Shown: positions 2,721-31,035 of the stretch, in pieces
Layout: each line of letters starts with the position of its first letter
Position numbering within the stretch: position 1 is the stretch's first letter
Origin: a virus
Length of the DNA stretch: 60,932 nucleotides
Virus record (IMG/VR): IMGVR_UViG_3300037293_000176
Location: 1-60,932 of that record
Direction: 5' to 3' (one strand)
Translations under genes and position numbers: made by a program
The notes under the pieces: generated by a model
What the model was told of the DNA's origin: nothing
The model's input: the letters and a program-made list of their open reading frames with translations, nothing else
The model's database searches: none

Positions 2721-3677
2721 TTATATATATCTAGACACTTCATTGTTTTTTACTAAATCTCTTGCTAATATCCAATTATTGTCATCTAATGGATCGTCTT
2801 CAACATTACCTGTAAAAAATCTATGATCTTCAGAACATTCTATAATCGTATTATCTTCAAATTCTATTCGGTATGTTTTCTTTTCAAACGTCCATGTGTT
2901 TTCTATTTCCATACCTCCATTTAATGTAAGAACTGAATCACCTTCTACTATATCTTCTATGTTCTTTAAGGTGTTATCGAACATTCTCACTTTAGATCCT
3001 GGAACTAAACAACCTCCACCTGCAACTTGTCTTGAAATAAAGTCTTGTGTTTGATAAGTATGATTAGTAAACAAAAATGGAATTTTTAAATCAGCAAGCG
3101 GAGTCATTATGATTCTAAAAATAGATTTTAAAATCTTAGATCTAGTCATATCTGCCTTTTCACTTCCACTTGTTGCATCATCAATTTCCTTTGCAGTCGC
3201 AAGGTTACCTGCTGAATCAAGAATAATCATGATTTTTTGTACTTCTCCACCTTTTCTTTTTACCTCTTGCATTTTTTGAGTAATAGTAGTGATTGAAGTC
3301 CTAAACGCCTGTACAGTATTTACAGGCTGATAATTTACTTTACTAATATCAATACCAAACTTTTTCATTTGGTCTTTATCTACTGCAGCTTCTGAATCAT
3401 AATAAATAACATAATATCCCATGTTAATTGCTTCTCGAACTGAATTTAATGTAAGAAAGGTTTTTCCAGTACCAGATGGTCCTGCTATTGAACAAGAACG
3501 GTTATTAGGCCATCCTCCCCATACCGAACCAGAAAGACATGCGTTTAAATGATAATTTCCAGTGTGAATCCATTCTGTTACTTCAGAAAAATTTGATTGG
3601 TCCATAACAGAACCTAAGGGGTTTAATCCTGCTAATTCTGCGTTTAAGTCATCGAATGTAAATTTATTTTTTGCCAT
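2721..3677 (-). CDS. uvsX: UvsX recombinase, N-terminal half, followed by an N-intein
   Basis: RecA-family recombinase. Residues 1-222 are the extein: Walker A GPSGTGKT at 66-73, a Walker B-like strand IMIILDSAG, and the run to QVAGGG at the start of loop 2. From Cys223 the sequence is the N-terminal part of an intein (CLVPGSKVRMFDNTLKNIED, block B CSEDHRFFTG), 96 residues, ending in a stop. The partner piece is at 1154-1726. Only after trans-splicing would the monomer be complete, since the remaining core and C-terminal part are in the second gene. A 54-residue coiled-coil gene lies directly upstream. In T4, UvsX loads on ssDNA with UvsY in the presence of gp32; both are encoded in this window. 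Confidence 0.93.
   Translation of the reverse strand: MAKNKFTFDDLNAELAGLNPLGSVMDQSNFSEVTEWIHTGNYHLNACLSGSVWGGWPNNRSCSIAGPSGTGKTFLTLNSVREAINMGYYVIYYDSEAAVDKDQMKKFGIDISKVNYQPVNTVQAFRTSITTITQKMQEVKRKGGEVQKIMIILDSAGNLATAKEIDDATSGSEKADMTRSKILKSIFRIIMTPLADLKIPFLFTNHTYQTQDFISRQVAGGGCLVPGSKVRMFDNTLKNIEDIVEGDSVLTLNGGMEIENTWTFEKKTYRIEFEDNTIIECSEDHRFFTGNVEDDPLDDNNWILARDLVKNNEVSRYI
2724..3011 (-). other. N-terminal part of split UvsX intein
   Basis: 96 codons starting at the Cys codon TGT (3009-3011). Block A (CLVPGSKV) and block B (SEDHRFFTG, with the conserved His) are visible. No endonuclease domain is fused; it ends in a stop and the endonuclease is a separate gene. Confidence 0.9.
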
Positions 3678-3860: not shown

Positions 3861-5057
3861 TTAAAATAATGATGTTGAATAAATTAAATTTCTGTTTAGT
3901 GTATGTAATCCTACCGCTGAAAGAACTCTGTTTAATGGATCAATTACACTTTTTTCAAACTGTAGTTCATAATCCACTGGTGGTGCAATTTCATACGGAT
4001 GTGCACTTGGTTGATATGCAAATATTTCACAAATAGAGTGTTTACAATGGTATAGTCTAAGCTTTTCTCCATTGCCAATCATCTTATATTTATTTTTATA
4101 TTTTGGATTGTTATTCATTAGAAAATTATAAAAACCTGCCGCCTTGACATTAGATGGGCATTTTAAGCCATACTGGAATTCAGTCGTATCATCTAGAATA
4201 TACTTATCGATGTTATTTGTTCTTTTGTTGAAGCAAATTTCATCTATATCTGCGAGCTGAAATTCTTTTTTACATTGTTTTAAATAATCTACTAATCTTT
4301 TTAGTAAAGATGCAGTTGGCTTCTCTGAAAGAATTAATTTAAGAGCTTCCGTTAAATGCTTTCTTGCAATCGCTGGAGTTGAGCTTTGAATAGTATCAAA
4401 TCCTATTGTTTTTATCTTTTTAAGTGAAGGGTACCTGTCATTGATATCGAGCCTGTCTTCCCATGCTATATTTTGAAGATATTTTTTCTTAGCTAACCAT
4501 ATTCCTGAATATGCTATTGTTTCTAATTCAAATACAAGAAAATTTTCGGTATTTGTTGCTTCTGAATACTTTTCCATACATTTAAAAATGTAATCCTTAA
4601 GTCTAAAGTTATATAATTCCATAATAAACTTATCTATTGACATAGAATCATCATTCCACTCAATAGATTCATACATTTCTTCGAATTGAACATAAGCCGA
4701 ATCGGTGTCAATATAAACAACAGATGGTCTTACTAGTTTATTCTTAATAGAAATATTAAAATGAGAATGCACTTGCTTATCTTTAAGCCAAAATTCATGA
4801 AAATACTTATTAAGAATTTTTTCTGAGTATAAAATGGCGGATTGACCCTGTAGTGTAATAGATTCAGCAATGTCTATGTTAAAAAAGTGAAACCATTTAT
4901 TTCCAAATGCACCATATATTGAGTTAAGCATTACCTTAACTGCCTGTTCGTATGCTGTATATTTAGCTGACATCATTGAATAATGTTCAACCAATATTTT
5001 GATCTCACTCTGTGTCAGATCTTCTTCCGGTTTTAGTATTAATTCATCTATTGTCAT
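3861..5057 (-). CDS. 43: Family B DNA polymerase, C-terminal half (fingers, palm, thumb)
   Basis: Carries polymerase motif B (KVMLNSIYG, residues 41-49) and motif C (YIDTDS, 115-120, the catalytic aspartates), then palm and thumb. It ends in a hydrophobic tail (IYSTSLF) that could bind the sliding clamp encoded immediately upstream. The exonuclease domain and motif A are missing; they are in the separate gene at 11590-12987. The break lies in the fingers between the RKDYKK stretch of the N-half and motif B. I see no intein sequence at either broken end, so the enzyme should be a non-covalent two-chain polymerase. Split gp43 is known in some T4-like phages of Aeromonas. Two bases separate its start from the clamp stop. 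Confidence 0.92.
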   Translation of the reverse strand: MTIDELILKPEEDLTQSEIKILVEHYSMMSAKYTAYEQAVKVMLNSIYGAFGNKWFHFFNIDIAESITLQGQSAILYSEKILNKYFHEFWLKDKQVHSHFNISIKNKLVRPSVVYIDTDSAYVQFEEMYESIEWNDDSMSIDKFIMELYNFRLKDYIFKCMEKYSEATNTENFLVFELETIAYSGIWLAKKKYLQNIAWEDRLDINDRYPSLKKIKTIGFDTIQSSTPAIARKHLTEALKLILSEKPTASLLKRLVDYLKQCKKEFQLADIDEICFNKRTNNIDKYILDDTTEFQYGLKCPSNVKAAGFYNFLMNNNPKYKNKYKMIGNGEKLRLYHCKHSICEIFAYQPSAHPYEIAPPVDYELQFEKSVIDPLNRVLSAVGLHTLNRNLIYSTSLF

Positions 5058-6486: not shown

Positions 6487-7473
6487 TTACGCTTCACAAC
6501 TCGCACAGTCTAAAATATCTCTAGCAAATGATTGAGCTGAACCTTGACTAAATTGGTAGTAAAGTGTTTTGATTCCCTCTTCATGCGCATATAAATACAA
6601 TTTATTAATGTCCTTTGCTGGAACGCTAGGATGAATCATTAAATTTAATGATTGTGACTGATCTATAAATTTTTGTCTCTGAGCTGCTTGTAAAACTATT
6701 TCCTTTGGTGTAATTTCAACAAAAGATTTAAAAACTTCTTTTGTTGGAAAATCTAAGTGCTGAACACTTCCATCTCTTTTGAGAATTCCTTCCCATACTT
6801 CAGGAGTATTTAAGTTATACTTGGTTAATTCATCAGTAAGAAATGGATTTTTGTATATTGTTTTTGACTTTGCTAAATCTTTAATAAAATAATTAGATTT
6901 AATAGGTTCTATTCCCATTGAAACTTGACCTAAAATAAATGAACTACTCTTTGTTGGTGCAATCGCAACTAATGTTGTATTTGCATATCCATCTCTTAGT
7001 GATCGATAACCTTTTTCATCATGTAACCATCGGGATGCCGCATCACTTCTTTCCTTTAAAGTTGAAAATATATCATGGTTTAATGCCTTTGATTGTAAAG
7101 AGTCAAATGTTATTAATTTTGACTGGAATAGTGAATGATAGCCAAGAACCCCTAGACCTAATGCTCTATGTTGTTCGGCAAATCGATGTGCCCTTGACAT
7201 ACCTGGCATTTTAAATGACTTCTTAATAAATTCATCCATAACTGCATTTAAGAACAATACATATGTTTCGATAGCATCTGTTTTTTTAATATCATCCCAA
7301 TGTAAAAGATTAATAGAACCTAAACAACATACAAACGAATTAAAAGAATCCGTTGGAAGCTGAATCTCGCTACAGTTATGCACTAGTATATCGTCAGCAT
7401 AAAAATTATGATTGTCCTCTACTGTGATATCGAAAACTGGAATTTCTTCTTCCAGATATTGTATTTTTAACAT
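6487..7473 (-). CDS. nrdA: Ribonucleotide reductase alpha subunit, C-terminal half, preceded by a C-intein
   Basis: Residues 1-33 are a C-intein (VFDITVEDNHNFYADDILVHN). The extein begins with Cys34 as CSEIQLPTDSF. Joined to the N-half, the junction reads ASNL|CSEI, the NrdA NLCxEI motif. Its Cys carries the transient thiyl radical, so the splice nucleophile is the catalytic residue itself. Also visible are the tyrosine pair LYYQFSQG of the radical-transfer path and a C-terminal cysteine pair (DCASCEA) for re-reduction by thioredoxin or glutaredoxin. Mature length after splicing would be about 541 residues, short for class I. It overlaps the HNH gene by 7 bases (ATGTTAA), giving translational coupling. 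Confidence 0.93.
   Translation of the reverse strand: MLKIQYLEEEIPVFDITVEDNHNFYADDILVHNCSEIQLPTDSFNSFVCCLGSINLLHWDDIKKTDAIETYVLFLNAVMDEFIKKSFKMPGMSRAHRFAEQHRALGLGVLGYHSLFQSKLITFDSLQSKALNHDIFSTLKERSDAASRWLHDEKGYRSLRDGYANTTLVAIAPTKSSSFILGQVSMGIEPIKSNYFIKDLAKSKTIYKNPFLTDELTKYNLNTPEVWEGILKRDGSVQHLDFPTKEVFKSFVEITPKEIVLQAAQRQKFIDQSQSLNLMIHPSVPAKDINKLYLYAHEEGIKTLYYQFSQGSAQSFARDILDCASCEA
7375..7473 (-). other. C-terminal part of split NrdA intein
   Basis: 33 codons with block F (VFDITVEDNHNFYADD) and block G ending His-Asn, then Cys as +1. Partner at 8479-8802. Confidence 0.9.
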
Positions 7474-8411
7474 ATTGTTATATTTTTGTTTTTAATTTCT
7501 TTTCTTGTTTTTAGATTATTATTGTAATATACATTAAGAACTAATCCGGTTTTCTCAGATGCTAATCTATGTAATTCTTTACTACCTAATCCATTAAATC
7601 TAAATGAGCTAAATGATTTTGGTAATTTTTCATACTTTTTAATTTTTCTATAGTGATTCGCAACCATTCTATATGGGAATAAAAATCCTAATCCCATTTC
7701 AACTGAAAATTCAGATACAATATTAACAAGCTCATCATCAGAAAATCCACTAAATCTTGGATTATTGTCACCTTTAGCGTCACCGATATTTGCAGTGTAT
7801 TCGTCATAATTATCTTTATATTCATTAACTGTTATGTATTTCTTAACACCTGTTGTTTTACATGTTACTGATATATTACCAGTGGAATGATGTCTCCATT
7901 TTCCAGATAGAACGTTTGGATGATTTACATCAACAGAACCTATCATTTCAAGCGTTTCAGAATCTATGACAGGCATTGTACCCTTCCTTGCTTCAGATAT
8001 GTTCTTTACACCCACAGGGCTATGCCATGTGTTTTGCTTTCTAAACATTGATACGTTCTGTTTGAATGATGCGACTAACTTATTCTTTAATTTAGAACTC
8101 AGTACACTAGATACTTTTTTCTTATAAACATATCCATTAACCATTAATCTAATTGCTAAAAAATCGTTTCTATTATTATAAGCTTTAAATCTTAATAAAT
8201 GTGCCATATAATGTTCCTCAGGTAACATAACAACTAAATTAGATTCTAAATCTTTACCTCCATCGTGTCTAGGTACTATATGATGCTTTTCAGTATAAAT
8301 ATAGTCTACACTAAGTCTTTCGTCGTTGGCATTCCTATTGCTTAATCGATCTTTAACATCAGTTGTTTTGCATAATTCACATAAGTTGTTGTATATTCGT
8401 TCATAGTTCAT
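7467..8411 (-). CDS. HNH homing endonuclease within split nrdA
   Basis: 314 residues. The HNH core is EKHHIVPRHDGG (His43, His44), SNLVVMLPEEHYMAHLL (Asn58, His67, His71). A longer DNA-binding C-terminal region follows, with a helix-rich end (SSFRFNGLGSKELHRLASEK). It sits exactly between the two intein-bearing NrdA pieces, so it is presumably the free-standing endonuclease that spreads the split intein. The N-terminus (MNYERIYNNLCELC) resembles the second HNH gene at 9537-10391 (MNWKVIYKNL), so the two are probably paralogues. Its start codon is abutted by a 10-bp inverted repeat described separately. Confidence 0.88.
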   Translation of the reverse strand: MNYERIYNNLCELCKTTDVKDRLSNRNANDERLSVDYIYTEKHHIVPRHDGGKDLESNLVVMLPEEHYMAHLLRFKAYNNRNDFLAIRLMVNGYVYKKKVSSVLSSKLKNKLVASFKQNVSMFRKQNTWHSPVGVKNISEARKGTMPVIDSETLEMIGSVDVNHPNVLSGKWRHHSTGNISVTCKTTGVKKYITVNEYKDNYDEYTANIGDAKGDNNPRFSGFSDDELVNIVSEFSVEMGLGFLFPYRMVANHYRKIKKYEKLPKSFSSFRFNGLGSKELHRLASEKTGLVLNVYYNNNLKTRKEIKNKNITIC

Positions 8412-8475: not shown

Positions 8476-9540
8476 TTAAGAATTAATAACTAATACATCT
8501 TCTTCTTTTAGATTTTTTGCCATAACATATCCTCTATTCGAAGTATATACTTTATGATCAGGTGTACATGTTATTGATTTTCCAGTAGCTTCATCTGTTA
8601 TTTTTATAACTTTAGCTTTTTTGGAAGTCATTGCACTATCTAATACTTTCTTGTATTCAATCTCAGAAGTTTCTATATTAAATGATTTAACTTCAAGCGT
8701 TGTATATAGATTATGTTGAAATAAACAATCTAACATTATGATAGGCATTGTCTTCTCAACACCGTCAACTCTTACTTTAACATCGGTCCAAGGCGCAACA
8801 CATAAATTTGATGCAGTAATGTCAAGGCCTAATTCCTTATAAGGGGAATTGTTATTACTATTATCCTTAAACATAATGTAAGGAAAACCAAACTCATTAC
8901 GTCGTTGAATAATCTTTGCCCATATTTTACGTTTTTGAGTATCTCCTTCTTTCATTTCTGATATCCAATTATCAGTTACGGTGACTCCGTATTGTAAATT
9001 TTGAATAGGATTTCCATCAGTTCCAATGTCTAAAAATTCTAAGATATCTTTATGTTCTACTGGCAACCATACTGCACATGCACCTCTTCTTGCCTCTGAT
9101 TGTTTACATACATCAACGGTTGTATCATACATTCTGGCATAATGCACAGGTCCGTCTGCTGTTCCTCCTGTGGAAATAGTAGCTCCTCTTTCTCTGATGT
9201 TTCCTAAAAAAGCTGAAGTTCCTCCTCCGTATTTTGACATCATTCCTATTTCTCTACTTGCATTTAATATACTATCTAAGTTATCATCTACATTACTTCC
9301 ATAGCAGCTAACAGGAAGACCTTTGTCTTTTCCGAAATTAATCCAAACAGGTGTTGATAAACTATAAAAACCTAAGTTCATATACTCCTCAAACTTCTTT
9401 GCAAATCCATCAATTTTTAGTATCTTTTCTGCGTTATTAGATACATCCTTAATTCGCTGTTCAGGAGATTCTTTAATATATCCTCGAGAGAGGAATGTTC
9501 GACTATCTTCATTAAGCCAATAATTCTTTTCGTAATTCAT
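8476..9540 (-). CDS. nrdA: Ribonucleotide reductase alpha subunit, N-terminal half, followed by an N-intein
   Basis: Extein residues 1-246 show class I NrdA features: SLSTPVWINFG, the first active-site cysteine in LPVSCYGS, and the substrate-site run SKYGGGTSAFLGNIRERGA. The extein ends LDITASNL. The intein begins at Cys247 (CVAPWTDVKVRVDG), has block B CTPDHKVYTS, and stops after 108 residues. There is no ATP-cone domain ahead of the catalytic barrel (it starts MNYEKNYWLNEDSRTF), so dATP overall-activity inhibition is probably absent. Its ATG overlaps the stop of the second HNH gene (ATGA). NrdA with NrdB converts ribonucleotides to deoxyribonucleotides for phage DNA synthesis. Confidence 0.93.
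   Translation of the reverse strand: MNYEKNYWLNEDSRTFLSRGYIKESPEQRIKDVSNNAEKILKIDGFAKKFEEYMNLGFYSLSTPVWINFGKDKGLPVSCYGSNVDDNLDSILNASREIGMMSKYGGGTSAFLGNIRERGATISTGGTADGPVHYARMYDTTVDVCKQSEARRGACAVWLPVEHKDILEFLDIGTDGNPIQNLQYGVTVTDNWISEMKEGDTQKRKIWAKIIQRRNEFGFPYIMFKDNSNNNSPYKELGLDITASNLCVAPWTDVKVRVDGVEKTMPIIMLDCLFQHNLYTTLEVKSFNIETSEIEYKKVLDSAMTSKKAKVIKITDEATGKSITCTPDHKVYTSNRGYVMAKNLKEEDVLVINS
8479..8802 (-). other. N-terminal part of split NrdA intein
   Basis: 108 codons from Cys247 to the stop, with block A (CVAPWTDVKVRV) and block B (CTPDHKVYTS). It has no endonuclease domain. Confidence 0.9.
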
Positions 9541-10391
9541 GTTGTTTTGTTTTTTTCTAGAATTTTATGTGATTTGTGTTCTTTTTGTATTTTACCAGTA
9601 GTTGGACATGGTAATTTAAAATAATTAAATGTCCAACCATTCCATTTACCTGCATTTTTTTTTGGTTTTGTGTAACATACTCCTTTATTTCTATTTCTAA
9701 CTAAAAACGATTGAGATATATTTAACTCCTCTATAATAGACTCTTGACTTTCATATTTTGTAATATTTCCATCTGGACTAATTACTTCATAAAATCCTTT
9801 AATCCATCCATAATTCCCATTGTTCTCTCCTGCATTATTATATTTTAACGCGAATTCAACATGAGTTAATGTTGCATTAATTTCCTTTATAGTTTTAGAA
9901 CGTTTTGCTTGGATTCCTGGATCTTTTGCCATTTCCCGTAGATGATTAGTAACTCCATTTTTCCATTTTTCCATTGCTGCATCAGAAATTACATGGCCAT
10001 TGTATTTTTCCTTTTTTGTTTTAATCATTTGTTTAACTTTCTCGGGGTTTTTCATTGGATTTTTATCACCGTCCCATAGTCTAAATCCTTTACCACCATT
10101 TCGGTTAGCCTCGACTGCTAATTTAACTCTTAGTCTTTGGGCTTCTTCTGTTTGAAGATTTCTAAGAGAATACATTAATTTATCTCCTTCACATCCGTAA
10201 ATTCTCCATAATAAATAATGGGCGAGTATGTGTTCCCTGAAGGTTAAAAGTACTAAATTATCTTCTAAATTATCACCACCCATGTGTTTTGGAATAATAT
10301 GATGATTTTCATAGTATATTTCAGTACTTCTAATTCTATTTTCTAGTATTGCTTTATCTATTAAGTTCTTATAAATGACTTTCCAATTCAT
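9537..10391 (-). CDS. Second free-standing HNH endonuclease, between nrdB and nrdA
   Basis: 284 residues. HNH motif YYENHHIIPKHMGGDNLEDN (His30, His31, Asn45) continuing to REHILAHYLLW. The C-terminal part contains a NUMOD-like segment (FYEVISPDGNITKYESQESI, then EELNISQSFLVRNRNKG), a sequence-specific DNA-binding module seen in phage HNH homing enzymes. No intein half or intron boundary flanks it: the NrdB frame upstream is complete and nrdA starts right after. It is therefore an intergenic homing endonuclease, probably targeting the nrd region of related phages. Its start codon lies inside an 11-bp stem. Confidence 0.88.
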   Translation of the reverse strand: MNWKVIYKNLIDKAILENRIRSTEIYYENHHIIPKHMGGDNLEDNLVLLTFREHILAHYLLWRIYGCEGDKLMYSLRNLQTEEAQRLRVKLAVEANRNGGKGFRLWDGDKNPMKNPEKVKQMIKTKKEKYNGHVISDAAMEKWKNGVTNHLREMAKDPGIQAKRSKTIKEINATLTHVEFALKYNNAGENNGNYGWIKGFYEVISPDGNITKYESQESIIEELNISQSFLVRNRNKGVCYTKPKKNAGKWNGWTFNYFKLPCPTTGKIQKEHKSHKILEKNKTT

Positions 10392-10434
10392 GTGATTGCT
10401 ATATTTTTATAGTTTATATATCTCAATCACATGA
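10388..10434 (-). promoter_or_regulatory. Hairpin enclosing the start codon of the second HNH gene
   Basis: Perfect 11-bp inverted repeat TCATGTGATTG (10388-10398) and CAATCACATGA (10424-10434), 25-base loop. The ATG (10391-10389) is inside one arm, so in a transcript from upstream it would be base-paired. The loop on the minus strand contains AGATATATAAACTATAAAAA, T4-late-promoter-like. A transcript starting in the loop would lack the other arm and free the start codon. This mirrors the known I-TevI control logic. Confidence 0.65.
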
Positions 10435-11589: not shown

Positions 11590-12987
11590 TTATTTAAGTC
11601 TTTTCTTTAATTTATCTGCGAGTGTAAAATATGTATATGATGTTTTTTTGTAATCCTTGCGTTGATTATATAGATCACTTAATATTTTTCTAAGAATAGA
11701 GTCTTCTGTTTTATAAACAACTCCATTGTCGCATACAATAACACTTCTATCCTTTCTTCTTTCTTCTATTTCACTCTTGTAAATTTTTTCAATATACGCA
11801 TCCGGTGAAATATTAAACTGACGCATTATTGAAGGATATAGCGAAGCAAAATCGAATGCACTTACTCCTTCATAATATCCTAGCGTAGGTTCCTTAACAT
11901 AAGCTCCTGCATACTGAGTATCTTTACTGCTATCTGTTTTTTCTTCACTACCAATTCGCATTCCTTGTTCTGCTAGTTTTCTAGCCATAATTGCTTCAGT
12001 AACTGCCACTGGAGAACTTGCCTTATACAATGGCATATTTGTGATATTTGCAAGAGTTAAAAGAACTTCCATTGACTTTAGCTTTTGATCAATATAGTAC
12101 ACTAAAACTGAATCGACTACATTATAATATATGTATTTAACAAAGTTGTCACGGTACAGGTCTTGCAATGATCCTGTGAACTTGATTTTATTAACATTAA
12201 GGACTTGACTAGAAACATAATCAAGGGAGTTGGATTCCTTTACTTTTACACTTCTATCATACTTGTCATATAATTGCATATAATCTAAAATTCCAAGGTG
12301 TAAAGGTCTTGAATCTCTGTTATCTACTGATTTTGTCCTTCCAATATCTTTAATATCTATCTGTAATCTTTTACATCTGTTTGTAATATATTGCCAGTCA
12401 TAATTAATAAAATTCCAACCCGTCATCATCGGAAATTTAGGTAAAAACTTAAACAGGAATGTATATACCATATCATATTCAGAATTAAACTTATGATATT
12501 TAAATTCCCAATCCATGTCAAAATCCTTAAAATACTCATTAGTATCATCTTGAATCTTTTGAATTTTATCAGATGCCATGTCTTCTAATCCAAGAACTAT
12601 TGCCTTGCGGTCAGGTGTGATTATTGAAAATGATAATATTCTACTTTTAGCCTCTTCTGCCTTTGGAAAACCATCAACTATCTCAGTTTCAATATCTACA
12701 AAATATGTTTTTGGCATATTATATGCAGTAAGATCTGCCTTATCTTTTTCAGATAGACTATCTAGAAAATAAAGAATGGAAAACTTATTATATTGTCTTC
12801 CATTTCCAAGTTTAACAGATCTACCATCCCAATTTTTAAATTGAGTACTGGCTGCTTTATCTTTGTCCTCGCATACATACCAATTCTGAAAATTACTTAC
12901 GGGATATTGTTTAAACGCTACTTCTCCTTCTGTATTATAATACGAAATAATAACGTCTTTATCCCTTTGCTCAATGTCAAGAATCAT
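11590..12987 (-). CDS. 43: Family B DNA polymerase, N-terminal half (exonuclease domain and motif A)
   Basis: 465 residues. Exo I YFVDIE (Asp98, Glu100), Exo II GWNFINYDWQYI (Asn192, Asp197), Exo III YYNVVDSVL (Tyr288, Asp292) are all present, so proofreading should be active. Polymerase motif A is DFASLYPSIMRQFNISPD (379-396). The protein ends in the fingers (YNQRKDYKKTSYTYFTLADK, then KLKKRLK) before motif B. The remaining palm is encoded 6.5 kb downstream at 3861-5057, with the nrd genes, two HNH genes and the clamp between. No intein residues at the C-terminus. The nine-repeat array begins just after the stop. Confidence 0.93.
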   Translation of the reverse strand: MILDIEQRDKDVIISYYNTEGEVAFKQYPVSNFQNWYVCEDKDKAASTQFKNWDGRSVKLGNGRQYNKFSILYFLDSLSEKDKADLTAYNMPKTYFVDIETEIVDGFPKAEEAKSRILSFSIITPDRKAIVLGLEDMASDKIQKIQDDTNEYFKDFDMDWEFKYHKFNSEYDMVYTFLFKFLPKFPMMTGWNFINYDWQYITNRCKRLQIDIKDIGRTKSVDNRDSRPLHLGILDYMQLYDKYDRSVKVKESNSLDYVSSQVLNVNKIKFTGSLQDLYRDNFVKYIYYNVVDSVLVYYIDQKLKSMEVLLTLANITNMPLYKASSPVAVTEAIMARKLAEQGMRIGSEEKTDSSKDTQYAGAYVKEPTLGYYEGVSAFDFASLYPSIMRQFNISPDAYIEKIYKSEIEERRKDRSVIVCDNGVVYKTEDSILRKILSDLYNQRKDYKKTSYTYFTLADKLKKRLK

Positions 12988-23360: not shown

Positions 23361-24365
23361 TTAACCTAGTGAACTTGTTAGCATTCCAACAGCTGCACCA
23401 TAATCTCCATCTGATTTCTGTAAGATACCATCAATTACTTCTTGTGATTTGTCCTCGTCAAATTCATCTCCAAATGCCTGCTTTAAGAGATTAACAGCGT
23501 AATCTTTAAATTCATCGTCAGATTTAATATCGGCCTCATTTACTAGAGATTCGCGAACATTATTTTCCCAATATGTTTTAAGTTTATTAAATTCTGTAAG
23601 TCCCATGTTAGAAATCATATATTTCGTAATGTCATTATAGTAATCATCAGCTTCATCTCTATATCCACCTGGGGTATCTATGTAATTATTACCCATAAAT
23701 TTTTTAATGTCATACTCTCTCATTGCATCTATTTCTTCTAGGAAATCTTCAAAGTCTTTTGTGTTTTTAAAACCTTTGGCCTCATTTACTAGAGATTCAT
23801 AAACAGTGCCGAGTAAATCTTCTTTTTTGTCAAATTTCTTTGCAGATTTCCTAACATCTTGTAACATTGAAATAATATTATCCAGTGCCTTAATATCTAG
23901 ATCAGAACCATTGCTTACCACAGAAGTTAGCTGTTGCATACGATTATCTATAACGTACATGTCGTTACTTATTACTTTTTTTGGTAGTCTGTAAAAGGAT
24001 TCTTTGATAGACTCTTCAACCTTAAATGTTTTACCTTCAAAATCGAATTCATCATCGCCGGCCTCTTTAGCCTTACGTACCGCATCTCCAAATGCGTTAC
24101 CTTCTTTTAATTTTTTTCCAGGTGGAGTTGGAGGATCTACTTTTTCTAGAGAACCACTCGCAAACATTTTATCTATAATTCCATTACGCTGTACTTCTTC
24201 TAATCCTTCTAATGAGGTTAATCCCATCTCGTCAAGAATAGATGCCAATTTATTTACTGTTTCTTGTCTTTTTGTATTGTTTGCTTCTCTTAATTTTACA
24301 GTAGATTCCTGTGATTTAACCTCAGAAAAACTCTTAAATGAAGAAATTTTGTTAATGTTAGCCAT
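23361..24365 (-). CDS. Acidic helical protein with repeated cleavage-like sites, probable prohead core or internal protein
   Basis: 334 residues, not recognised by family. N-terminus MANINKISSFKSFSEVKSQE fits the F..F..E pattern of the cluster. ESLVNEA occurs twice (YESLVNEAKGF and RESLVNEADIK), each ahead of a helical acidic domain (TKDFEDFLEEIDAMREYDIK; SDDEFKDYAVNLLKQAFGDE). It could be a polyprotein-like precursor cut at V-N-E/A during head maturation, comparable in logic to T4 gp22/gp67 or the internal proteins. That is inference from pattern and neighbours. Ends in a glycine/serine tail after a UBA-like segment (VIDGILQKSDGDYGAAVGML). Confidence 0.6.
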   Translation of the reverse strand: MANINKISSFKSFSEVKSQESTVKLREANNTKRQETVNKLASILDEMGLTSLEGLEEVQRNGIIDKMFASGSLEKVDPPTPPGKKLKEGNAFGDAVRKAKEAGDDEFDFEGKTFKVEESIKESFYRLPKKVISNDMYVIDNRMQQLTSVVSNGSDLDIKALDNIISMLQDVRKSAKKFDKKEDLLGTVYESLVNEAKGFKNTKDFEDFLEEIDAMREYDIKKFMGNNYIDTPGGYRDEADDYYNDITKYMISNMGLTEFNKLKTYWENNVRESLVNEADIKSDDEFKDYAVNLLKQAFGDEFDEDKSQEVIDGILQKSDGDYGAAVGMLTSSLG

Positions 24366-24399
24366 TGTTTTATGTATTTTTTATTATATTATTGATAAG

Positions 24400-25335
24400 T
24401 TATATATCTCCGTCAAATTCAACACTTTTAACTGTAAATGGGAACTTTTCTTGTGTATAAATAGCCTGTCTTGCCTTTCCGTGTTTATATAAATAGTTAT
24501 CCCATTCTATAGATCTGATATTATCTACAAAATCTATAATTAAAACCTTTTCCTTTGATTCATGTTGTCTTAATCCTCTTCCTATGGACTGTCTTATAAT
24601 AACCTCGGATTTAAATGATTCTGTAAAAAATATGTTATGTATTTTTTTTATAGAAATTCCTGTGGAAAATGTTCCGAATGAAGCTACTATTACGATTTCT
24701 TCACCAGCCTCCATTTTCTTTTTATACTCTTCTCTTATATCAGACGAAGTTCCACCATCCACATAGAATACTCTTTTATTGCTTTCTTGTCTAAGTTTTT
24801 CATAAAGGCGCTGGCCATGCTCAATTCTGTGAAAAAGAACTAAACTATTTCTTGGAACCTTAGCGATAACAGTAGATATAAAGTTAAGTCTGGCATTGCT
24901 AGTAATTACAAAATTTTGTTCTAAAGAAAAAACATCTTTATTTTCATATTTATTCTGAGCCAATTCCATAAATGCTGTTCTCTGTTTAGGAGTTGCATAA
25001 TTCATTTCAATAACCTTTACAATACATTTTGCGATGTAACCTTCCTTTTGTAAAAAGCTAGCTTTAACCTCGGTAATTAAAGGTCCAGTTTGACTCATTA
25101 GCGTGAGTCGATCTAATGTGTCTGGTTTAGGAATTGTGCCTGAAAGTCCAAATTTGTAGTTTGCATTTACACATTTAGAAAGAATTTCTTTGATAGATGC
25201 ACCTTTGGCTTTATGGCAATTTGAAACGTTTAACCCATTTGCAAAATAATTGTGGTTTAAACCGTCTTCTGATTTTATTCTAAGATTATAAACAGTATCG
25301 CTATATTCTATTTTTTTAATATTATTAATCTTCAT
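24400..25335 (-). CDS. uvsW: UvsW helicase, C-terminal half, preceded by a C-intein
   Basis: Residues 1-39 are a C-intein (DTVYNLRIKSEDGLNHNYFA, ending VSN). The extein starts CHKAKGASIKEI. Joined to the N-half it makes VDE|CHKAKG, completing the DECH box. Later helicase motifs are here: motif III FGLSGT, motif IV-like LVLFHRIEHGQ, motif V IVASFGTFSTGISI and motif VI IIRQSIGRGLRQ. UvsW remodels recombination intermediates and R-loops, switching T4 from origin to recombination-dependent replication. The C-intein has Ser rather than His before the terminal Asn. Its partner gene lies 4.3 kb upstream. Confidence 0.93.
   Translation of the reverse strand: MKINNIKKIEYSDTVYNLRIKSEDGLNHNYFANGLNVSNCHKAKGASIKEILSKCVNANYKFGLSGTIPKPDTLDRLTLMSQTGPLITEVKASFLQKEGYIAKCIVKVIEMNYATPKQRTAFMELAQNKYENKDVFSLEQNFVITSNARLNFISTVIAKVPRNSLVLFHRIEHGQRLYEKLRQESNKRVFYVDGGTSSDIREEYKKKMEAGEEIVIVASFGTFSTGISIKKIHNIFFTESFKSEVIIRQSIGRGLRQHESKEKVLIIDFVDNIRSIEWDNYLYKHGKARQAIYTQEKFPFTVKSVEFDGDI
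25219..25335 (-). other. C-terminal part of split UvsW intein
   Basis: 39 codons, block F YNLRIKSEDGLNHNYFANG and block G LNVSN followed by Cys. Penultimate Ser instead of the usual His. Partner at 29610-29897. Confidence 0.88.
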
Positions 25336-25391
25336 ATAAAATGTTTTAGTAATCTTTTTAATTTTAAAAAATAAAAGACTCGTAGATATAA

Positions 25392-26033
25392 TTATTTTAT
25401 GACATTAACCTTAACATTAACATTAGACACGGGAATGCCTACTTTGGCATTTTCATCTAAGTTTACAGTTACCTTTTTAGATAATTTTATTTTAAAAGTG
25501 TCAGACCATGGAATAAATAGATTTCCGTCTGCAACAACTTCGAGCTTAATATTTCCAGTATCTCCTTCATTAAGAATTCCTAGTTTTTTTATAGGAACAA
25601 TACATTTGTTATTTACAATATTTCCTGGAAATACAAGAGACCATTCTGTTGTCTCAATAATAATTCTAGTGTAAGCTTCTTCAATGGATGCACCTTCGAT
25701 TGATATATCACATATGAATTCCTCATTTATATCTTTATACAGGGTGTAATTTGTGTCATCTTCTATAATTTCAAGAGTTATTTCCTCTGAAATTTTATCT
25801 TTTATGTATTCTATTATATCCTCTTCGACAACTATATCATCATGTGTTGCTATATCCTCTTGGACAACTATATCATCATGTACAGATATATCATCATGGG
25901 TTGCTATATCATTTTCTTTTTCAATAGTATCATCGATTAGTATTGACTCGTTGTTAGGTAAAATCTGAATAGAATTATCGATTTCATTATTATTCATAAA
26001 GTCGATAAAACTAAAAACATCAAGTTTTTTCAT
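25392..26033 (-). CDS. Hypothetical protein with Asp-rich hexapeptide repeats
   Basis: 213 residues. The N-terminus MKKLDVFSFIDFMNNNEIDN recalls the targeting pattern of other proteins in the region, without a clear cleavage site. Residues about 42-70 are repeats of the form DIxxHDD/DIVVxED (DIATHDDISVHDDIVVQEDI and so on), mirrored by direct DNA repeats at about 25830-25910. The C-terminal part is predicted beta-rich (WSLVFPGNIVNNKCIVPIKK and KIKLSKKVTVNLDENAKVGI), like a virion-surface or carbohydrate-type beta sandwich. Family not recognised. It lies between UvsW-C and the fibre genes. Confidence 0.6.
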   Translation of the reverse strand: MKKLDVFSFIDFMNNNEIDNSIQILPNNESILIDDTIEKENDIATHDDISVHDDIVVQEDIATHDDIVVEEDIIEYIKDKISEEITLEIIEDDTNYTLYKDINEEFICDISIEGASIEEAYTRIIIETTEWSLVFPGNIVNNKCIVPIKKLGILNEGDTGNIKLEVVADGNLFIPWSDTFKIKLSKKVTVNLDENAKVGIPVSNVNVKVNVIK

Positions 26034-26078
26034 GATTTAAATTATTTTTTATTTAATATATATTAATATTAAAATTTG

Positions 26079-26432
26079 TTATTTTCGTATGTTATTAGAA
26101 AAGCCTATATTTATTTTAATTCCTTCCTTTATTCCTTGTTTAATGAATATTTCAAAATCAGATCCTAGAACTTTAATATTTTCATTGATTTCTCTTTTTT
26201 CTTGATACTCGATACCTTTAAATTTACAATAAAGTTCTAGAAATCGTTTTGTCTTGGTGTCACCTATATCTTTTTGTAGTCTCTGGCCTGGATTACCATA
26301 TGCAACATATCCTCCCGATCCGGCTACAATATTGTTAACTTCAATTAAAACAGAAACATCTGACCATTTCTGACCGGATGTTTCATTCCATTTTTTAAGT
26401 TCTTTCCATTTAAAATATCGCTTTTGTGGCAT
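26079..26432 (-). CDS. Hypothetical protein
   Basis: 117 residues, basic N-terminus (MPQKRYFKWKELKKWNETSG), a glycine-rich centre (IVAGSGGYVAYGNPGQRLQK), then helical and beta segments (FEIFIKQGIKEGIKINIGFS). No family recognised. It starts 15 bases after the stop of the large repeat fibre gene, so it is probably co-expressed and may be a fibre-related chaperone or a small virion protein. That is a guess from position only. Confidence 0.55.
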   Translation of the reverse strand: MPQKRYFKWKELKKWNETSGQKWSDVSVLIEVNNIVAGSGGYVAYGNPGQRLQKDIGDTKTKRFLELYCKFKGIEYQEKREINENIKVLGSDFEIFIKQGIKEGIKINIGFSNNIRK

Positions 26433-26447
26433 AAAAAGTTTTAATTA

Positions 26448-28532
26448 TTAAGTCATATTTATGTAACCGATACCTGCACCAGTGATTGCGCTAATAGCTG
26501 TAGTATTAAACTCTAAATTACTATATGCTCCAATATGAGTTCTACCAATTTGGTCTCCGATTGCAGCTGTACCAACCATACTTAATTGTGGTCCTAGTGG
26601 TAAACGGAATCTAATTGGGGTTTCAATAGCTCCAATACCTTGTTGTCTGTATGTTACCATAAGTATTTTCGCAGGTAAACCTGTACCAAATGATACCCAA
26701 TTACCAGCAGTTGGTGTTGTAGATGATAATAACAATGTTTGTATTGATTTCAAATATGTAACAGCTGACGAAGAGGCCGCTAATGCTGCAACCGATACCG
26801 TGGATGTAAATATGGCTGCCTTGGCTATTGAACTACTAAACAATGATCCTAGTAGTGTATTATTAGAAACATAACGTGCCATTGCTGGTTCTGAATTTAC
26901 TATTAATCCTATTGATACTGTATTGTTAATTGCTACATCAAAGTTAGAATTACCCCCAAGTGCTGTAAGTGCTGCTGCATTTGCTGTAAATCCTGTCATA
27001 ATAATGCTGTTTCCAACTACAATTGAAAACCTAGGACTTGTAGCTAATACTAACATTGCATCTGAATCACTTGCAAATACTTCTGATGCTCCCGCACTTG
27101 CATTTACTAGTGTTAAAGCTGATGCTCTACCTATTATTTGGGCAAAGGTTGACATTATTAAAGTTATTCCTGCTAAGTTATAAGTTATTGCAAAAGCATT
27201 ATTTTCGTAGTAGGGGCTATCTTTAAACTGACTCCAACTTGTAATATTTGCATTTATAGCATTTATTGAAGTTGTTTTATTAGACACAGCTGTCATTGCA
27301 TTTTCGGAATTAAAAATAATATCTCTTATTCCTACAGTAGAGGTTGCACCAACTAAAATTCCAACTGATATTGAATTAGATGATAATATAGGCATCCCTA
27401 TAGGGTCATTAATTGCAAGAGTTAAATTAGAATGGGTTGATAACCCTATAACACCCGTGGAATTACCCGCTAAAGCTGTCATTATTACTACATTACTTTT
27501 TACAAGTGTAAAGTTTGTACTTGTAGCTATGTTAACCATTGCATCATTGTTATTTGCTAAGGCAGTCATTATAATAGAATTACCTGATACTATTGAAAGA
27601 TTTTCACTTGCTCCCAATGTTAACATAGCACCACTACTTGAAGCTAAAGCTTCTGATGCTCTTACGCTTGAATTCACTGCTGTTATAGCATCAATGTCAT
27701 TAATAATATCATCAACATTAGCAAAGGATAACGGGCTAATTTCTTGAACTAAATTTGCAATTATGTTTTTTAAGTTAGCTACAAAAAACGCACTTCCTTT
27801 AAAAATTTCTTTTGCAATACTATTAGAATATATAGTTGACATTGCTATTTTACTATTAGCCATAGTAGCCATTGCTGTTGATTTAGAAGCCAATTCACTC
27901 ATCGCTATTGTACTATTGGCAATTGCTGTCATACTTCTTTGAGAGTTTGTTATGTAACTTAAAGCAGTTTGGTTAGAAGATATTAACTCCATTCCAATGT
28001 TATTAGTAGATGTTCTTAAAACTAAATCATCGTCTTCTATGATAGCTCTAATTGCATTAGTGCTTGCTATTATTTTTGACATTGCTACAGGATCTGCAAA
28101 TATAAAGTTTCTGTCAGGGTAAAGTACTAAATCTAATCCTGCAAAAACAGCGGCAGCATAACCAAGATTATCTGCAGCATAGGGACTTTGTATGTATATG
28201 TCCCACGCTACCCGATTGTTTATAATTTTAGTTAAGGTCGGTAAGTTAAGCGATACATTAAGCATTGCTAAGGGACTTAAAGCCATTGCCTGTGCGGCTG
28301 TTGAATTATTCATACTGGCTGCTCCAAAGACAGAATCTGTTGCTATTGGGCTTGCGATAATTGCAGAAATTGCTAATTGGTTTGCTGCTAAACTTCTTGT
28401 TTCACTCCTCATTGAAAGTGCTTCTTCAAACCCTACCCTTGTGCCAGGGTTTGTTAATCTTGTTTGAAATTCTGATCCAAGTACTGTTCCAGATTTTACT
28501 GCCGTTAACAGTCTTCTTGTTGATAATTGCAT
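26448..28532 (-). CDS. Repeat-rich fibre or adhesin-like virion protein
   Basis: 694 residues built from short repeats of about 10-11 residues of the type AMxxIANSxI (SMTAIANSTIAMSELASKST, AMATMANSKIAMSTI...), with a larger duplicated module of about 100 residues (ASEALASSSGAMLTLGASEN versus ASEVFASDSDAMLVLATSPR). The regular small and aliphatic spacing suggests an elongated repeat fold. A non-repetitive C-terminal domain (IRFRLPLGPQLSMVGTAAIG to GAGIGYINMT) could be the tip. Most likely a tail-fibre or head-decoration component. It sits inside the region between the two uvsW pieces and is co-directional with them. Confidence 0.6.
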   Translation of the reverse strand: MQLSTRRLLTAVKSGTVLGSEFQTRLTNPGTRVGFEEALSMRSETRSLAANQLAISAIIASPIATDSVFGAASMNNSTAAQAMALSPLAMLNVSLNLPTLTKIINNRVAWDIYIQSPYAADNLGYAAAVFAGLDLVLYPDRNFIFADPVAMSKIIASTNAIRAIIEDDDLVLRTSTNNIGMELISSNQTALSYITNSQRSMTAIANSTIAMSELASKSTAMATMANSKIAMSTIYSNSIAKEIFKGSAFFVANLKNIIANLVQEISPLSFANVDDIINDIDAITAVNSSVRASEALASSSGAMLTLGASENLSIVSGNSIIMTALANNNDAMVNIATSTNFTLVKSNVVIMTALAGNSTGVIGLSTHSNLTLAINDPIGMPILSSNSISVGILVGATSTVGIRDIIFNSENAMTAVSNKTTSINAINANITSWSQFKDSPYYENNAFAITYNLAGITLIMSTFAQIIGRASALTLVNASAGASEVFASDSDAMLVLATSPRFSIVVGNSIIMTGFTANAAALTALGGNSNFDVAINNTVSIGLIVNSEPAMARYVSNNTLLGSLFSSSIAKAAIFTSTVSVAALAASSSAVTYLKSIQTLLLSSTTPTAGNWVSFGTGLPAKILMVTYRQQGIGAIETPIRFRLPLGPQLSMVGTAAIGDQIGRTHIGAYSNLEFNTTAISAITGAGIGYINMT

Positions 28533-28548
28533 AATTTTTATTTTAGTT

Positions 28549-29157
28549 TTACTTTGTTACAAAAAAAGATGTTAATCTACCTGTTTCATCTTCATCGAGT
28601 TCATCTCTAAGGTTTCTATCATCTGTTGACCATGCTGATATTAGATCAGGTGCAGGTACATTTAAAAGCCATTGTCCTATTGGTAAAAGGCTTAAAGGAT
28701 CAACTGCCGTGAATGATGTTTCGTCATCATCCGGCTCGGTGAATGAATCTACAAAAATTAAGAGACCAATTCCTTCAATTACTACTGAATCATCAGTTGC
28801 AGGTAAAGGTTGTGTTGGATATCTTAATATGCCTCGGTTTTCATATGTTAAACTTTCTAATTCGGTTTTACTTCTTGCGATAACAAGTGGCTCGCCTCCA
28901 GTAATGGATTTACCATTTATAGTAACTAAATCTTCTTTGGACACTTTTTTATTTAATTCTTCAAGCGCCAGATCACTTATTGGTTTTTCAGCGTCAGATG
29001 TATTATTAACCTTGTCGAGTTCGTTATTTACTCTTGATATAATATCATTAAATAGTAATTTGGATTCATCTATTGAAAGTTTTTGAATTACTACCTGATT
29101 AATCAAATCAGTCGTAGCCGATGTTAGTGATGCAATTAATTGTTCAGTTGTTGCCAT
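28549..29157 (-). CDS. Probable tail fibre/structural protein
   Basis: 202 residues. The helical N-terminal part (MATTEQLIASLTSATTDLIN) contains coiled-coil-like heptads (ESKLLFNDIISRVNNELDKV). A small beta domain follows with TINGKSITGGEPLVI, a motif common at the attachment end of phage fibres, then an acidic C-terminal part (WSTDDRNLRDELDEDETGRL). It is the first large product after two small helical genes and precedes the 694-residue repeat protein. A virion-fibre role is likely, but no specific T4 counterpart is recognised. Confidence 0.55.
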   Translation of the reverse strand: MATTEQLIASLTSATTDLINQVVIQKLSIDESKLLFNDIISRVNNELDKVNNTSDAEKPISDLALEELNKKVSKEDLVTINGKSITGGEPLVIARSKTELESLTYENRGILRYPTQPLPATDDSVVIEGIGLLIFVDSFTEPDDDETSFTAVDPLSLLPIGQWLLNVPAPDLISAWSTDDRNLRDELDEDETGRLTSFFVTK

Positions 29158-29367
29158 TTATCTATTCAATATTGTTATTAATAATGTTTGTGTATTAATT
29201 AAGTTTGTGCTTACTATAAATAAAGGTTCTATCGCCCTATTTTCAGATAACGCAATAGCATTAGATATAAGAGAATTGACATTACCCTTAAGGGCGGTAC
29301 ATGTTTCTAATAAGCTAGTAGTCTGTGCTGTTAAATTATCTATTGCTTCTTCAATTGTCATTGCCAT
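29158..29367 (-). CDS. Small helical protein
   Basis: 69 residues with a coiled-coil-like pattern (MTIEEAIDNLTAQTTSLLET, then CTALKGNVNSLISNAIALSE). It overlaps the upstream 72-residue gene by 17 bases and its stop abuts the next gene's start. Resembles the N-terminal helical part of the following fibre protein, so it may be a trimerising fibre-attachment subunit; inference only. Confidence 0.55.
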   Translation of the reverse strand: MAMTIEEAIDNLTAQTTSLLETCTALKGNVNSLISNAIALSENRAIEPLFIVSTNLINTQTLLITILNR

Positions 29368-29569
29368 ATGATTCTAAAATATATTTTGCTAGTATCTTTT
29401 GTGTTTGTATTAAATTTGATGCCTGATTAACTTGATAATATAATGGCGTACTTATTGGCAGGCTATTACCTTTTCCATCAAAATATGATCCATTTCCATC
29501 AGTTTGCACTAATCGGTTAAATGTAAGAGATACTTCGGATTCTGTTAAATCAAACTCAGGGTTTTGCAT
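29351..29569 (-). CDS. Small hypothetical protein, fibre-operon start
   Basis: 72 residues (MQNPEFDLTESEVSLTFNRL, then VQTDGNGSYFDGKGNSLPIS, ending in a helix). Not recognised. It follows the UvsW N-terminal gene by 37 bases and overlaps the next gene by 17, so translation of the three small and middle fibre-type genes is probably coupled. Confidence 0.5.
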   Translation of the reverse strand: MQNPEFDLTESEVSLTFNRLVQTDGNGSYFDGKGNSLPISTPLYYQVNQASNLIQTQKILAKYILESYGNDN

Positions 29570-29606
29570 TTTATTATATTATATTATTAATAGTATATAT
29601 CATTTT

Positions 29607-30590
29607 TTATATACAAAATATGTCATCAGTATATGATAATTGATCCACTCTCTTATATACCCCTGATGTTAATTTAACTCTATGATTTCCTGTTATTTTA
29701 ATAATAGATCCATCTTCCATTTCTAACTCAAACATTTGATTTCCTTTAGATAAATCATGATATACAAATTCAACTTCTCTATCTTCAATTTCTAAAGTTT
29801 TATCATTAGTTGTTTTAACATATTCTCCTGCCTTTATTTCATTTATCTTTTTATAGGAGCCATTGCTCATTTTTATTAGAGTATCGGGATGTATGCACTC
29901 GTCAACTATTACTGCATCAAATTCTGAAAAGTATGCAGCATCCTTTTTAATTAAAGATTGATAAGTACCTATAATTATATTTTTATTAGGTTTAATATCT
30001 TGACCAGCAAATATTTGTTGAATTCTTAGATCTATTTTGTTTTTGTAATTGTAATCGTGAAAATCTTCATGAGCCTGTACTACTAATGAAACATTAGGTA
30101 CTATAAACAGTATTTTAGTTGCCTTGTTATGTTCTAATATATATGCTACTGTTAAAAAACTAATTAATGTTTTACCTGCAGAAGTTGCAAGTTCAGCTAG
30201 ACATTTTCTAAACTTTAAAATATTAAAAGCAGCCTCTATTTGATAATCACGAGGTGTAAATTTCTCTGAGTCTTTAAAGAATTCTAAAGACCATTTTTCA
30301 AATACTTCTGGATTAATATTTGGATCTATTAATCTTTTTATTCCTTCAATTTTAAGTTCAAATCTATACTCCTTACAAATTGACATAACATATTGCCAGA
30401 GTCCAGCTGGAATCCATTTATCATCCTTAATGTATGACACATATCCATCCCATATTCCACGTTTTACTAAAGGATGAAACCGCCAACTGTCAATTCGCTT
30501 AGTTAAAGATATTTTAATCTGCTCTAACTCTAGTTCAGTAGCATCATCAATTCTTAAAAATTGATTATCTTCGGTTAATGTTAAAATCAA
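29607..30590 (-). CDS. uvsW: UvsW helicase, N-terminal half, followed by an N-intein
   Basis: Extein residues 1-231: an N-terminal DNA-binding region (RGIWDGYVSYIKDDKWIPAG), Q-motif-like FTPRDYQIEAA, Walker A ATSAGKT (135-141), motif Ia FIVPNVSLVVQ, and the start of the Walker B box (DAVIVDE). At Cys232 the intein begins (CIHPDTLIKMSNGSYKKINE, block B TGNHRVKLTSG) and ends after 96 residues. The cut falls inside DECH, so neither half can hydrolyse ATP alone. It follows the UvsY gene as in T4's uvsY-uvsW neighbourhood. The second half is 4.3 kb further along. Confidence 0.93.
   Translation of the reverse strand: MILTLTEDNQFLRIDDATELELEQIKISLTKRIDSWRFHPLVKRGIWDGYVSYIKDDKWIPAGLWQYVMSICKEYRFELKIEGIKRLIDPNINPEVFEKWSLEFFKDSEKFTPRDYQIEAAFNILKFRKCLAELATSAGKTLISFLTVAYILEHNKATKILFIVPNVSLVVQAHEDFHDYNYKNKIDLRIQQIFAGQDIKPNKNIIIGTYQSLIKKDAAYFSEFDAVIVDECIHPDTLIKMSNGSYKKINEIKAGEYVKTTNDKTLEIEDREVEFVYHDLSKGNQMFELEMEDGSIIKITGNHRVKLTSGVYKRVDQLSYTDDIFCI
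29610..29897 (-). other. N-terminal part of split UvsW intein
   Basis: 96 codons from Cys232 to the stop, with block A (CIHPDTLIKMSNG) and block B (ITGNHRVKLTSG). No endonuclease fused to it or encoded next to it. Confidence 0.9.
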
Positions 30591-30606
30591 ATCTATTTAA
30601 ATCTTT

Positions 30607-31035
30607 TTATAGACGACTAATATCAAGGCGATTCTTTATTGCAAAGCCCATATTATCTAAAGTTTTAATAGATCCTTCAAAGAAACTCTTTTGGATAGTT
30701 AATAACTCTAGAATTGTCGTTTCGTCAGAAATATCTGCTTCGATAAATCTTTCTTTCATTTTATCAGTAAGTTTGTAATCATATGTAAAGTACTCTATCC
30801 ATTTTTCTTTGTACCTTTTATCGACTACTGCCTTTTGGGATTTAATTCTATTTCCCATAACTGCTAGATGTTCTACCATTATTTGTCGATAGCTTAATGT
30901 ATATGCACTTACATCCTGTAGATTGTTACCTAATTTTAAATCTTCAGTTAATCCTTTGATTTTTAAAGTCCAATCTTCTCTTTGTTTGTTTAAATATTCA
31001 TCTAACTGTTGAATTTTATCTTTAGCCTCTATCAT
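30607..31035 (-). CDS. uvsY: UvsY-like recombination mediator
   Basis: 142 residues, helical and charged, close to T4 UvsY in length. The C-terminal region IQKSFFEGSIKTLDNMGFAI followed by KNRLDISRL resembles the T4 UvsY end (...ALDAIKSRGFAIKHIQDMR). UvsY helps UvsX replace gp32 on ssDNA. The gene order UvsY then UvsW supports the call. Sequence similarity is judged from memory, so the identification is good but not certain. Confidence 0.78.
   Translation of the reverse strand: MIEAKDKIQQLDEYLNKQREDWTLKIKGLTEDLKLGNNLQDVSAYTLSYRQIMVEHLAVMGNRIKSQKAVVDKRYKEKWIEYFTYDYKLTDKMKERFIEADISDETTILELLTIQKSFFEGSIKTLDNMGFAIKNRLDISRL

Follow-up and report, generated by a model that had tools for sequence, protein, structure and literature searches.

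How does a helicase gene come to lie in two halves some 4.3 kb apart with other genes between them, and could such a gene still yield a working protein? The question is raised by uvsW, which encodes a DNA-repair helicase, in an IMG/VR virus record of 60,932 bases from a T4-like phage, referred to here as the window, in which the gene occupies two minus-strand open reading frames (ORFs) separated by a gap of 4271 nt that contains a gene for a tail-fibre-like protein. On careful analysis of the window and of the corresponding loci and contigs of its relatives (given L numbers), we consider it very probable that this is a fractured uvsW whose split-intein homing endonuclease was replaced by a horizontally acquired tail-fibre cassette.

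The two halves of uvsW and their intein parts

The N-half ORF (29607-30590, minus strand, 327 residues) comprises an extein of residues 1-231, ending in VDE, and an N-intein of residues 232-327 that begins CIHPDTLIKM and contains TGNH. The C-half ORF (24400-25335, minus strand, 311 residues) opens with a C-intein of residues 1-39, which is followed by CHKAKG. These borders and residues agree with those of an earlier sequence-only reading of this DNA (Table 1). Pfam assigns ResIII and DEAD to the N-half and Helicase_C to the C-half, all above the curated cut-offs; UvsW_N (E 6e-5), Hint (E 2e-6) and Intein_splicing (E 1e-5) in the N-half are significant by E-value and lie below the curated cut-offs, and Intein_splicing in the C-half is a weak match (E 0.078). 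Residues 13-234 of T4 UvsW (1rif/2oca) align to the N-half up to DEC (E 1.1e-25 and 4.8e-25), and residues 232-501 (2oca, 510 residues) align to the C-half from its residue 38 (E 9.2e-33). With nearly all of T4 UvsW covered, the pair classifies by sequence match as a T4-type UvsW, and helicase activity is predicted for it.

The intein parts are complementary, lie on separate ORFs and carry Cys1, TxxH, a terminal Asn and Cys+1, the features by which a naturally split intein would be recognised. When 16 sequences of related inteins, 15 of them N-inteins and the other a continuous intein, were combined into a profile, it matched solved inteins, with 1mi8 as the best (E 1.1e-9), and Cys1, TGNH, the terminal Asn and Cys+1 are kept in all 49 rows of our table of intein loci. 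PHROGs has separate families for such halves, phrog_16259 for N-halves and phrog_9690 for C-halves, with matches that cross the boundary between extein and intein. An AlphaFold model of the N-half has a predicted local distance difference test score (pLDDT) of 73.7. The earlier proposal of a split intein whose removal would reconstitute the DECH box is supported; splicing would ligate 231 and 272 residues into a predicted UvsW of 503 residues.

A homing-endonuclease scar before the C-intein

About 31 bases ahead of the window C-intein match the 3' end of the endonuclease gene found in relatives. The leader from h213, one of the intervening genes, to the C-intein measures 56 nt and reads ...KLKRLLKHFI* in a frame whose stop overlaps the C-intein ATG. 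The counterpart endonuclease tails read ...KMKRLLKQFRLI in L169 and ...KMKRLLKQFKMI in L171, with the same frame and the same ATGA stop overlap, and in the five endonuclease-type relatives compared, the endonuclease frame reaches or enters the C-intein start. The likeness was scored as the sum of local scores against five endonuclease tails (L015, L041, L166, L169 and L171). The window leader scores 89. Elsewhere in the window, sampled at every third base on both strands, no score among 40,533 segments exceeds 69.5; none of 5000 dinucleotide shuffles reaches 89 (maximum 67.5), and the best of 55 other gene leaders scores 59.5. The leader is the same in L013 and L014. Because the endonuclease tail persists just before the C-intein, the sequence argues firmly that in the window lineage the cassette took the place of the endonuclease body. 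Two of the explanations first offered for the locus gain from this scar: loss of the homing gene is supported by it, and rearrangement after intein splitting becomes specific, as the replacement of the endonuclease body by a fibre cassette.

States of the locus in relatives

A search of relatives for an intact uvsW or for other arrangements, as the sequence-only reading had advised, found 129 contiguous loci and 33 split-intein records. The survey covered the window, IMG/VR loci, genome-collection loci and phage records; 49 loci had N-extein, N-intein and C-intein matches together, and merging loci of one contig gave the 33 records, near-identical contigs being kept separate. An endonuclease match lies in a gap of 801-1240 nt in 23 of them (20 from IMG/VR as well as S16, PM2 and Lak-B4), for seven of which the endonuclease ORF was read directly (L015, L041, L166, L169, L171, S16 and Lak-B4, the last broken under table 11). 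Two have a 220-nt gap with an endonuclease remnant (L205/L209), in two the endonuclease is missing from a gap of just 10 or 69 nt (L204, L214), and two have a continuous intein in one ORF, endonuclease and break being gone (L216, L222). The fibre cassette stands between the halves in the remaining four, namely the window, L013 (161 kb), L014 (170 kb) and L032 (64 kb). One split-intein locus is in this way caught in several states, with the endonuclease present, decayed, lost, lost with fusion to a continuous intein, or replaced. Loci without all three matches were set aside. Among them are L200 and L229, where an endonuclease separates the intein parts but the N-extein is unmatched; L206, L219, L228 and L231, which match the N-intein alone; and L012/L203, L210, L217, L218, L221, L227 and L230, whose available sequence includes no C-intein.

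By tblastn coverage, uvsW is split at an identical codon in Salmonella S16 and similar phages, in Proteus PM2 and in Prevotella Lak-B2, -B4, -B7 and -B8, of which S16, PM2 and Lak-B4 were inspected individually; a split uvsW as such is not unique to the window phage. The Lak-B4 ORFs are broken under table 11, with a stop in the C-intein; Lak phages are known for recoding. The L015 endonuclease ORF matches a PHROG annotated as endonuclease (E 2.9e-24, residues 166-298), and Pfam matches of three uvsW-type endonuclease ORFs are below cut-off and of mixed kinds, with restriction-endonuclease-fold and TnsA-like families among the best.

Relatives unsplit at the site (the 129 loci passing the contiguous-uvsW filter, some contigs counted twice) read DETH in 126 cases, DEAH in two and DECH in one. 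The single DECH belongs to L039; apart from the match of L040, which is likewise unsplit at the site, that of L039 is the only one among those listed to begin at the Cys, and its DECH might have been left behind by an intein since lost. In L015 (10467-12621), L016, L040 (10001-12714) and L225, uvsW is interrupted a second time, close to helicase motif V (FG^TFSTG). An HNH-like ORF is visible by eye in L015 and L040, no clear C-intein was seen in either, and Rfam at gathering thresholds gave no match in the window, L015 or L040. L041/L042 (G004:C1:153-575) carry another, continuous mini-intein upstream of uvsW, above the Pfam cut-off.

Proposed history

The ancestor would have had the order of present relatives: uvsW-N with N-intein, endonuclease, then C-intein with uvsW-C. 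A fibre cassette with its own leader would have taken the place of the endonuclease and ended inside its last codons, therefore leaving about ten codons and the stop before the C-intein; the scar gives the order of events in one lineage. Since the gene was already two cistrons, the insertion would cost no helicase function. Two polypeptides would still be made, whose N- and C-inteins would associate and join VDE to CHKAKG by trans-splicing, giving a UvsW of 503 residues with its DECH box whole. Phage homing endonucleases have been proposed to mobilise the regions that they flank (Barth et al., PMC10448857), and a module swap at the uvsW site would fit that proposal.

Genes between the halves and their transcription

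The gap (25336-29606) holds six ORFs, named f72, f69, f202, f694, h117 and h213, and no endonuclease ORF, the 3'-end scar being the only remnant, in agreement with what had been noted at first. Both features of an endonuclease-bearing fractured gene, an endonuclease ORF between the halves and halves otherwise adjacent, are absent from the uvsW of the window. The cassette is called fibre-type because of the f694 match and the operon context, the other five ORFs being without an informative match; f72, f69, h117 and h213 gave no match.

Table 1. Positions of the uvsW parts, the intervening genes and associated signals (window coordinates unless a relative is named)
Feature	Position	Strand	Remarks
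UvsW N-extein	29898..30590	-	231 aa, TTG start, motif I to VDE
N-intein	29610..29897	-	96 aa, Cys1, TGNH block B; stop codon 29607-29609
C-intein	25219..25335	-	39 aa, C-terminal end NHNYFANGLNVSN
UvsW C-extein	24403..25218	-	272 aa, first residues CHKAKG; stop 24400-24402
Homing-endonuclease scar	25332..25367	-	last codons KLKRLLKHFI*; stop overlaps C-intein ATG as ATGA
GATATATA late-promoter-like motif	29594..29601	-	32 nt before f72; putative function
f72, small hypothetical protein	29351..29569	-	
f69, small hypothetical protein	29158..29367	-	
f202, fibre-associated hypothetical protein	28549..29157	-	202 aa; weak or unknown-function matches
f694, tail-fibre-like protein	26448..28532	-	694 aa; phrog_7809, E 4.8e-16
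h117, hypothetical	26079..26432	-	
h213, hypothetical	25392..26033	-	
Leader hairpin, window	10386-10431	-	GATATATAA- or AATATATAA-type motif inside
Leader hairpin, L015	9468-9520		GATATATAA- or AATATATAA-type motif inside
Leader hairpin, L166	2201-2253		GATATATAA- or AATATATAA-type motif inside
Leader hairpin, L041	7880-7923		GATATATAA- or AATATATAA-type motif inside

The motif GATATATA, which we take to resemble a T4-type late promoter, occurs 14 times on the minus and twice on the plus strand of the window, and stands within 100 nt ahead of 10 of 57 gene starts, f72 included. It is over-represented to a modest degree: for the minus strand, a Markov model yields a mean of 6.0 copies and a maximum of 14 in 200, against the 14 observed. 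Neither uvsW half has a copy within the 100 nt ahead of it; the C-half would now be the last gene of the fibre operon and, since the motif is missing before it, would probably be transcribed with the fibres. Such a layout may suggest selection for making active UvsW dependent on readthrough of the late fibre operon, with helicase activation thereby coupled to late expression, the deliberate linkage that the sequence-only reading had put forward, and the motif ahead of the cassette, its absence before either half and the terminal place of the C-half would all suit this. The excess of the motif, however, is modest, the cassette state is rare (4 of 33 records), and the minus strand of 24300-31000 has sigma-70-like matches as well as two weak ones to terminators, of which both strands together give 5 against 2.2 in shuffles. 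Moreover, the endonuclease-type L015, L166 and L041 have an AT-rich ATATATAA leader upstream of the C-half, like that of the window and taken as late-promoter-like (it was not seen in L169), and T4 uvsW is itself expressed from a late promoter, as stated in PMC3016281. Given these similar leaders and the late T4 gene, a C-half that depends on late transcription would be nothing peculiar to a locus with fibre genes, and deliberate linkage appears unlikely.

Among the endonuclease leaders folded, four of five (L015, L166, L041 and the window HNH ORF at 10391) form a hairpin over the pre-start region with a similar motif inside, at shuffle z of -2.6 to -4.2. No such hairpin forms in the stretch taken for the HNH ORF of the window at 8411 (z 0.05) or in the cassette leaders. 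The four resemble leaders of T4 homing endonucleases, for which hairpins and late promoters are described in PMC2988022.

Origin and spread of the cassette

The cassette is also found away from a split uvsW. In L120, homologues of f72, f202, f694 (in two copies), h117 and h213 lie in window order immediately downstream of an uninterrupted uvsW, interspersed with extra ORFs, and the next gene is homologous to the one found after the C-half in the window; in L035, homologues of f202 and of the start of f694 lie downstream of an intact uvsW, where the contig ends. Among 17 contigs of 90-234 kb searched, L013 and L120 have matches to both f202 and h213, L014 has one to h213 alone, and the other 14, in which uvsW is unsplit at this site, have neither. 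Homologues of f694 at 79-83% identity occur in L194, L195, L197 and L198 with no uvsW match within 10 kb, in the 22 kb examined of each, and h213-like genes occur in further contigs without uvsW nearby. Because of this patchy presence, downstream of intact uvsW as well as in contigs without uvsW nearby, the cassette classifies by its distribution as an acquired accessory module. L014 (11224-11346) has a cassette deletion of about 2.8 kb, which begins where f69 starts and stops shortly before f694 ends, so that the last ~40 codons of f694 are left; over the rest of the compared stretch its identity to the window is about 95-97%.

The extein tree has 48 rows, including 37 unsplit rows kept from the 129 loci at <97% identity, and requires the cassette state to change twice: the window group falls within the DETH phages, and L032 is joined to L171, which bears the endonuclease (support 94/48). 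L120 and L035 were dropped since the translated match ran past the stop codon, and are unplaced there. An intein tree of 26 rows again pairs L032 with L171 (95/92), and the four cassette carriers form one clade in 0% of its 200 bootstrap trees, with p = 0.069 in the approximately unbiased (AU) test. These trees would place the cassette between uvsW halves in two separate extein lineages, a single origin being not formally rejected.

A bolder reading takes the intein halves as homology arms and as a tolerated docking site for host-range genes, with N-intein, cassette and C-intein forming a non-autonomous homing unit that the endonuclease of a co-infecting phage would copy into an intein-free (DETH) uvsW. 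If true, a receptor-binding module would spread as the cargo of a protein-splicing element. The two separate lineages would allow it, as would the identities between the window and L032, 80% in f694 against 56-58% in the exteins (~57% for the flanking exteins taken together), but the grouping of the L032 intein with its endonuclease-bearing neighbour L171 speaks for separate cassette entry instead, and we regard such a homing unit as quite unlikely.

Is the divided gene still in use?

From what is known of helicase motifs, neither half alone would hold a complete motor, the DExH box being divided between them. Pieces of a split helicase could in principle assemble, and a phage ribonucleotide reductase split by an endonuclease is said to work as two peptides (cited in PMC10448857), which may suggest a non-covalent complex that functions without splicing. 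The break, however, lies inside the DExH box, and both intein parts are conserved with their nucleophiles, which would be needless without splicing, so that such a complex is very improbable. Between the window and L013, the exteins differ by 77 synonymous and 2 nonsynonymous substitutions, the N-intein by 5 and 1, and the C-intein by none. Since catalytic residues are kept in every row and the changes are synonymous-rich, the parsimonious reading is that splicing would have been required and maintained after cassette entry. The large separation and the lack of a homing gene are the sole points in favour of halves that are decaying remnants, with another helicase doing the work; the substitution counts and the kept catalytic residues speak against it, as does the single copy of the C-extein in each of the window (G000), the 161 kb contig (G001) and the 170 kb contig (G002). 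A dead gene is hardly credible on this evidence, and purifying selection together with the single C-extein copy contradicts the outcome named at the outset as refuting, namely remnants beside a full-length uvsW elsewhere.

Several observations nevertheless weigh against the history of endonuclease replacement and continued splicing proposed above. L032, of the other cassette lineage, shows the same outcome as the window with the scar trace absent: no endonuclease tail precedes its C-intein, where the scar score of 41.5 is at background. A 5' endonuclease remnant after the N-intein of the window is not convincing (score 52, reached by 159 of 24,358 segments). Trans-splicing would follow from conservation and the substitution pattern, and the N-inteins of L013 and L014 differ by 0 synonymous and 2 nonsynonymous changes. 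The count of C-exteins covers 161 and 170 kb contigs of unstated completeness. The AlphaFold model of the related continuous intein L222 is poor (pLDDT 61), probably owing to misalignment of the intein halves in the input, although the nine structures that Foldseek ranks closest to it are all inteins. Lastly, all cassette cases are metagenomic contigs, two of them (L013 and L032) from one metagenome (3300036670), and this, with the deletion in L014 (3300037295) relative to L013, might point to an assembly chimera absent from real genomes, a notion made implausible in the extreme by the recurrence of the order in the window, L013, L014 (in deleted form) and the much more divergent L032, and by the left junction seen in L012 (3300037336).

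Other split genes of the window

The sequence-only reading had placed an endonuclease gene within both other split genes that it saw. This holds for nrdA, fractured over 6487-7473, 7467-8411, 8476-9540 and 9537-10391 (minus strand): an HNH homing endonuclease separates its halves, and another HNH ORF lies immediately upstream of the N-half. For uvsX (2721-3677, 1674-2717 and 1154-1726, minus strand) it is unproven: the ORF of 347 aa that separates the halves gave no match to any Pfam or PHROG family and does not convincingly resemble any of three uvsW-type endonucleases. DNA polymerase B is also split (11590-12987 and 3861-5057, minus strand), with nrdB, the fractured nrdA and other genes between; the first of these ORFs covers profile positions 19-137 and the exonuclease domain and the second 149-378, and no intein match was found in either.

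Comparison with known systems

Salmonella S16 (gp114/gp115) and Proteus PM2 are like the window in the gene, in the insertion point DE^CH and in having the intein parts on separate ORFs. They differ in that their halves are adjacent with one ORF between, and in a C-intein that ends AHN rather than VSN; the intervening ORF of S16 (291 aa, annotated hypothetical) is related to the uvsW-type endonucleases of relatives. Fractured genes with split inteins and an endonuclease between the halves were reportedly described by Dassa and colleagues in 2009. The window is alike in its two ORFs, its complementary intein halves and its scar of an ancestral endonuclease, and it differs in that tail-fibre genes replace the endonuclease and the halves lie 4.3 kb apart; its uvsW is a derived variant of a fractured gene with a split intein. 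The literature on split inteins, fractured genes and uvsW, in the portions at hand, reports no fractured gene with fibre genes between its halves. In phage MIJ3, according to PMC6892783, a split intein divides DNA polymerase B between two neighbouring ORFs, with a single ORF for an HNH endonuclease between them; both phages have a replication gene split by an intein into two ORFs, the halves being adjacent in MIJ3. T4 resembles the window in that phage homing endonucleases target its uvsW, beside which lies segE, a gene for a free-standing endonuclease (PMC2988022), although T4 uvsW is unsplit and gives one chain of 510 residues in 2oca.

A parallel for separated halves is cyanobacterial DnaE. 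Its split intein, like that of the window, has a penultimate Ser before the terminal Asn and is without an endonuclease. The DnaE halves are separated (PMC7765530), as are those of the window, which differ in lying on the same strand 4.3 kb apart, with a scar that would show how the separation arose; an unlinked split gene of the DnaE type would have halves at distant loci that are not transcribed together. The locus offers a concrete route by which a fractured gene with neighbouring halves could become one whose halves lie apart, as those of DnaE do, and it suggests that a trans-spliced gene may serve phages as a safe landing place for host-range genes.

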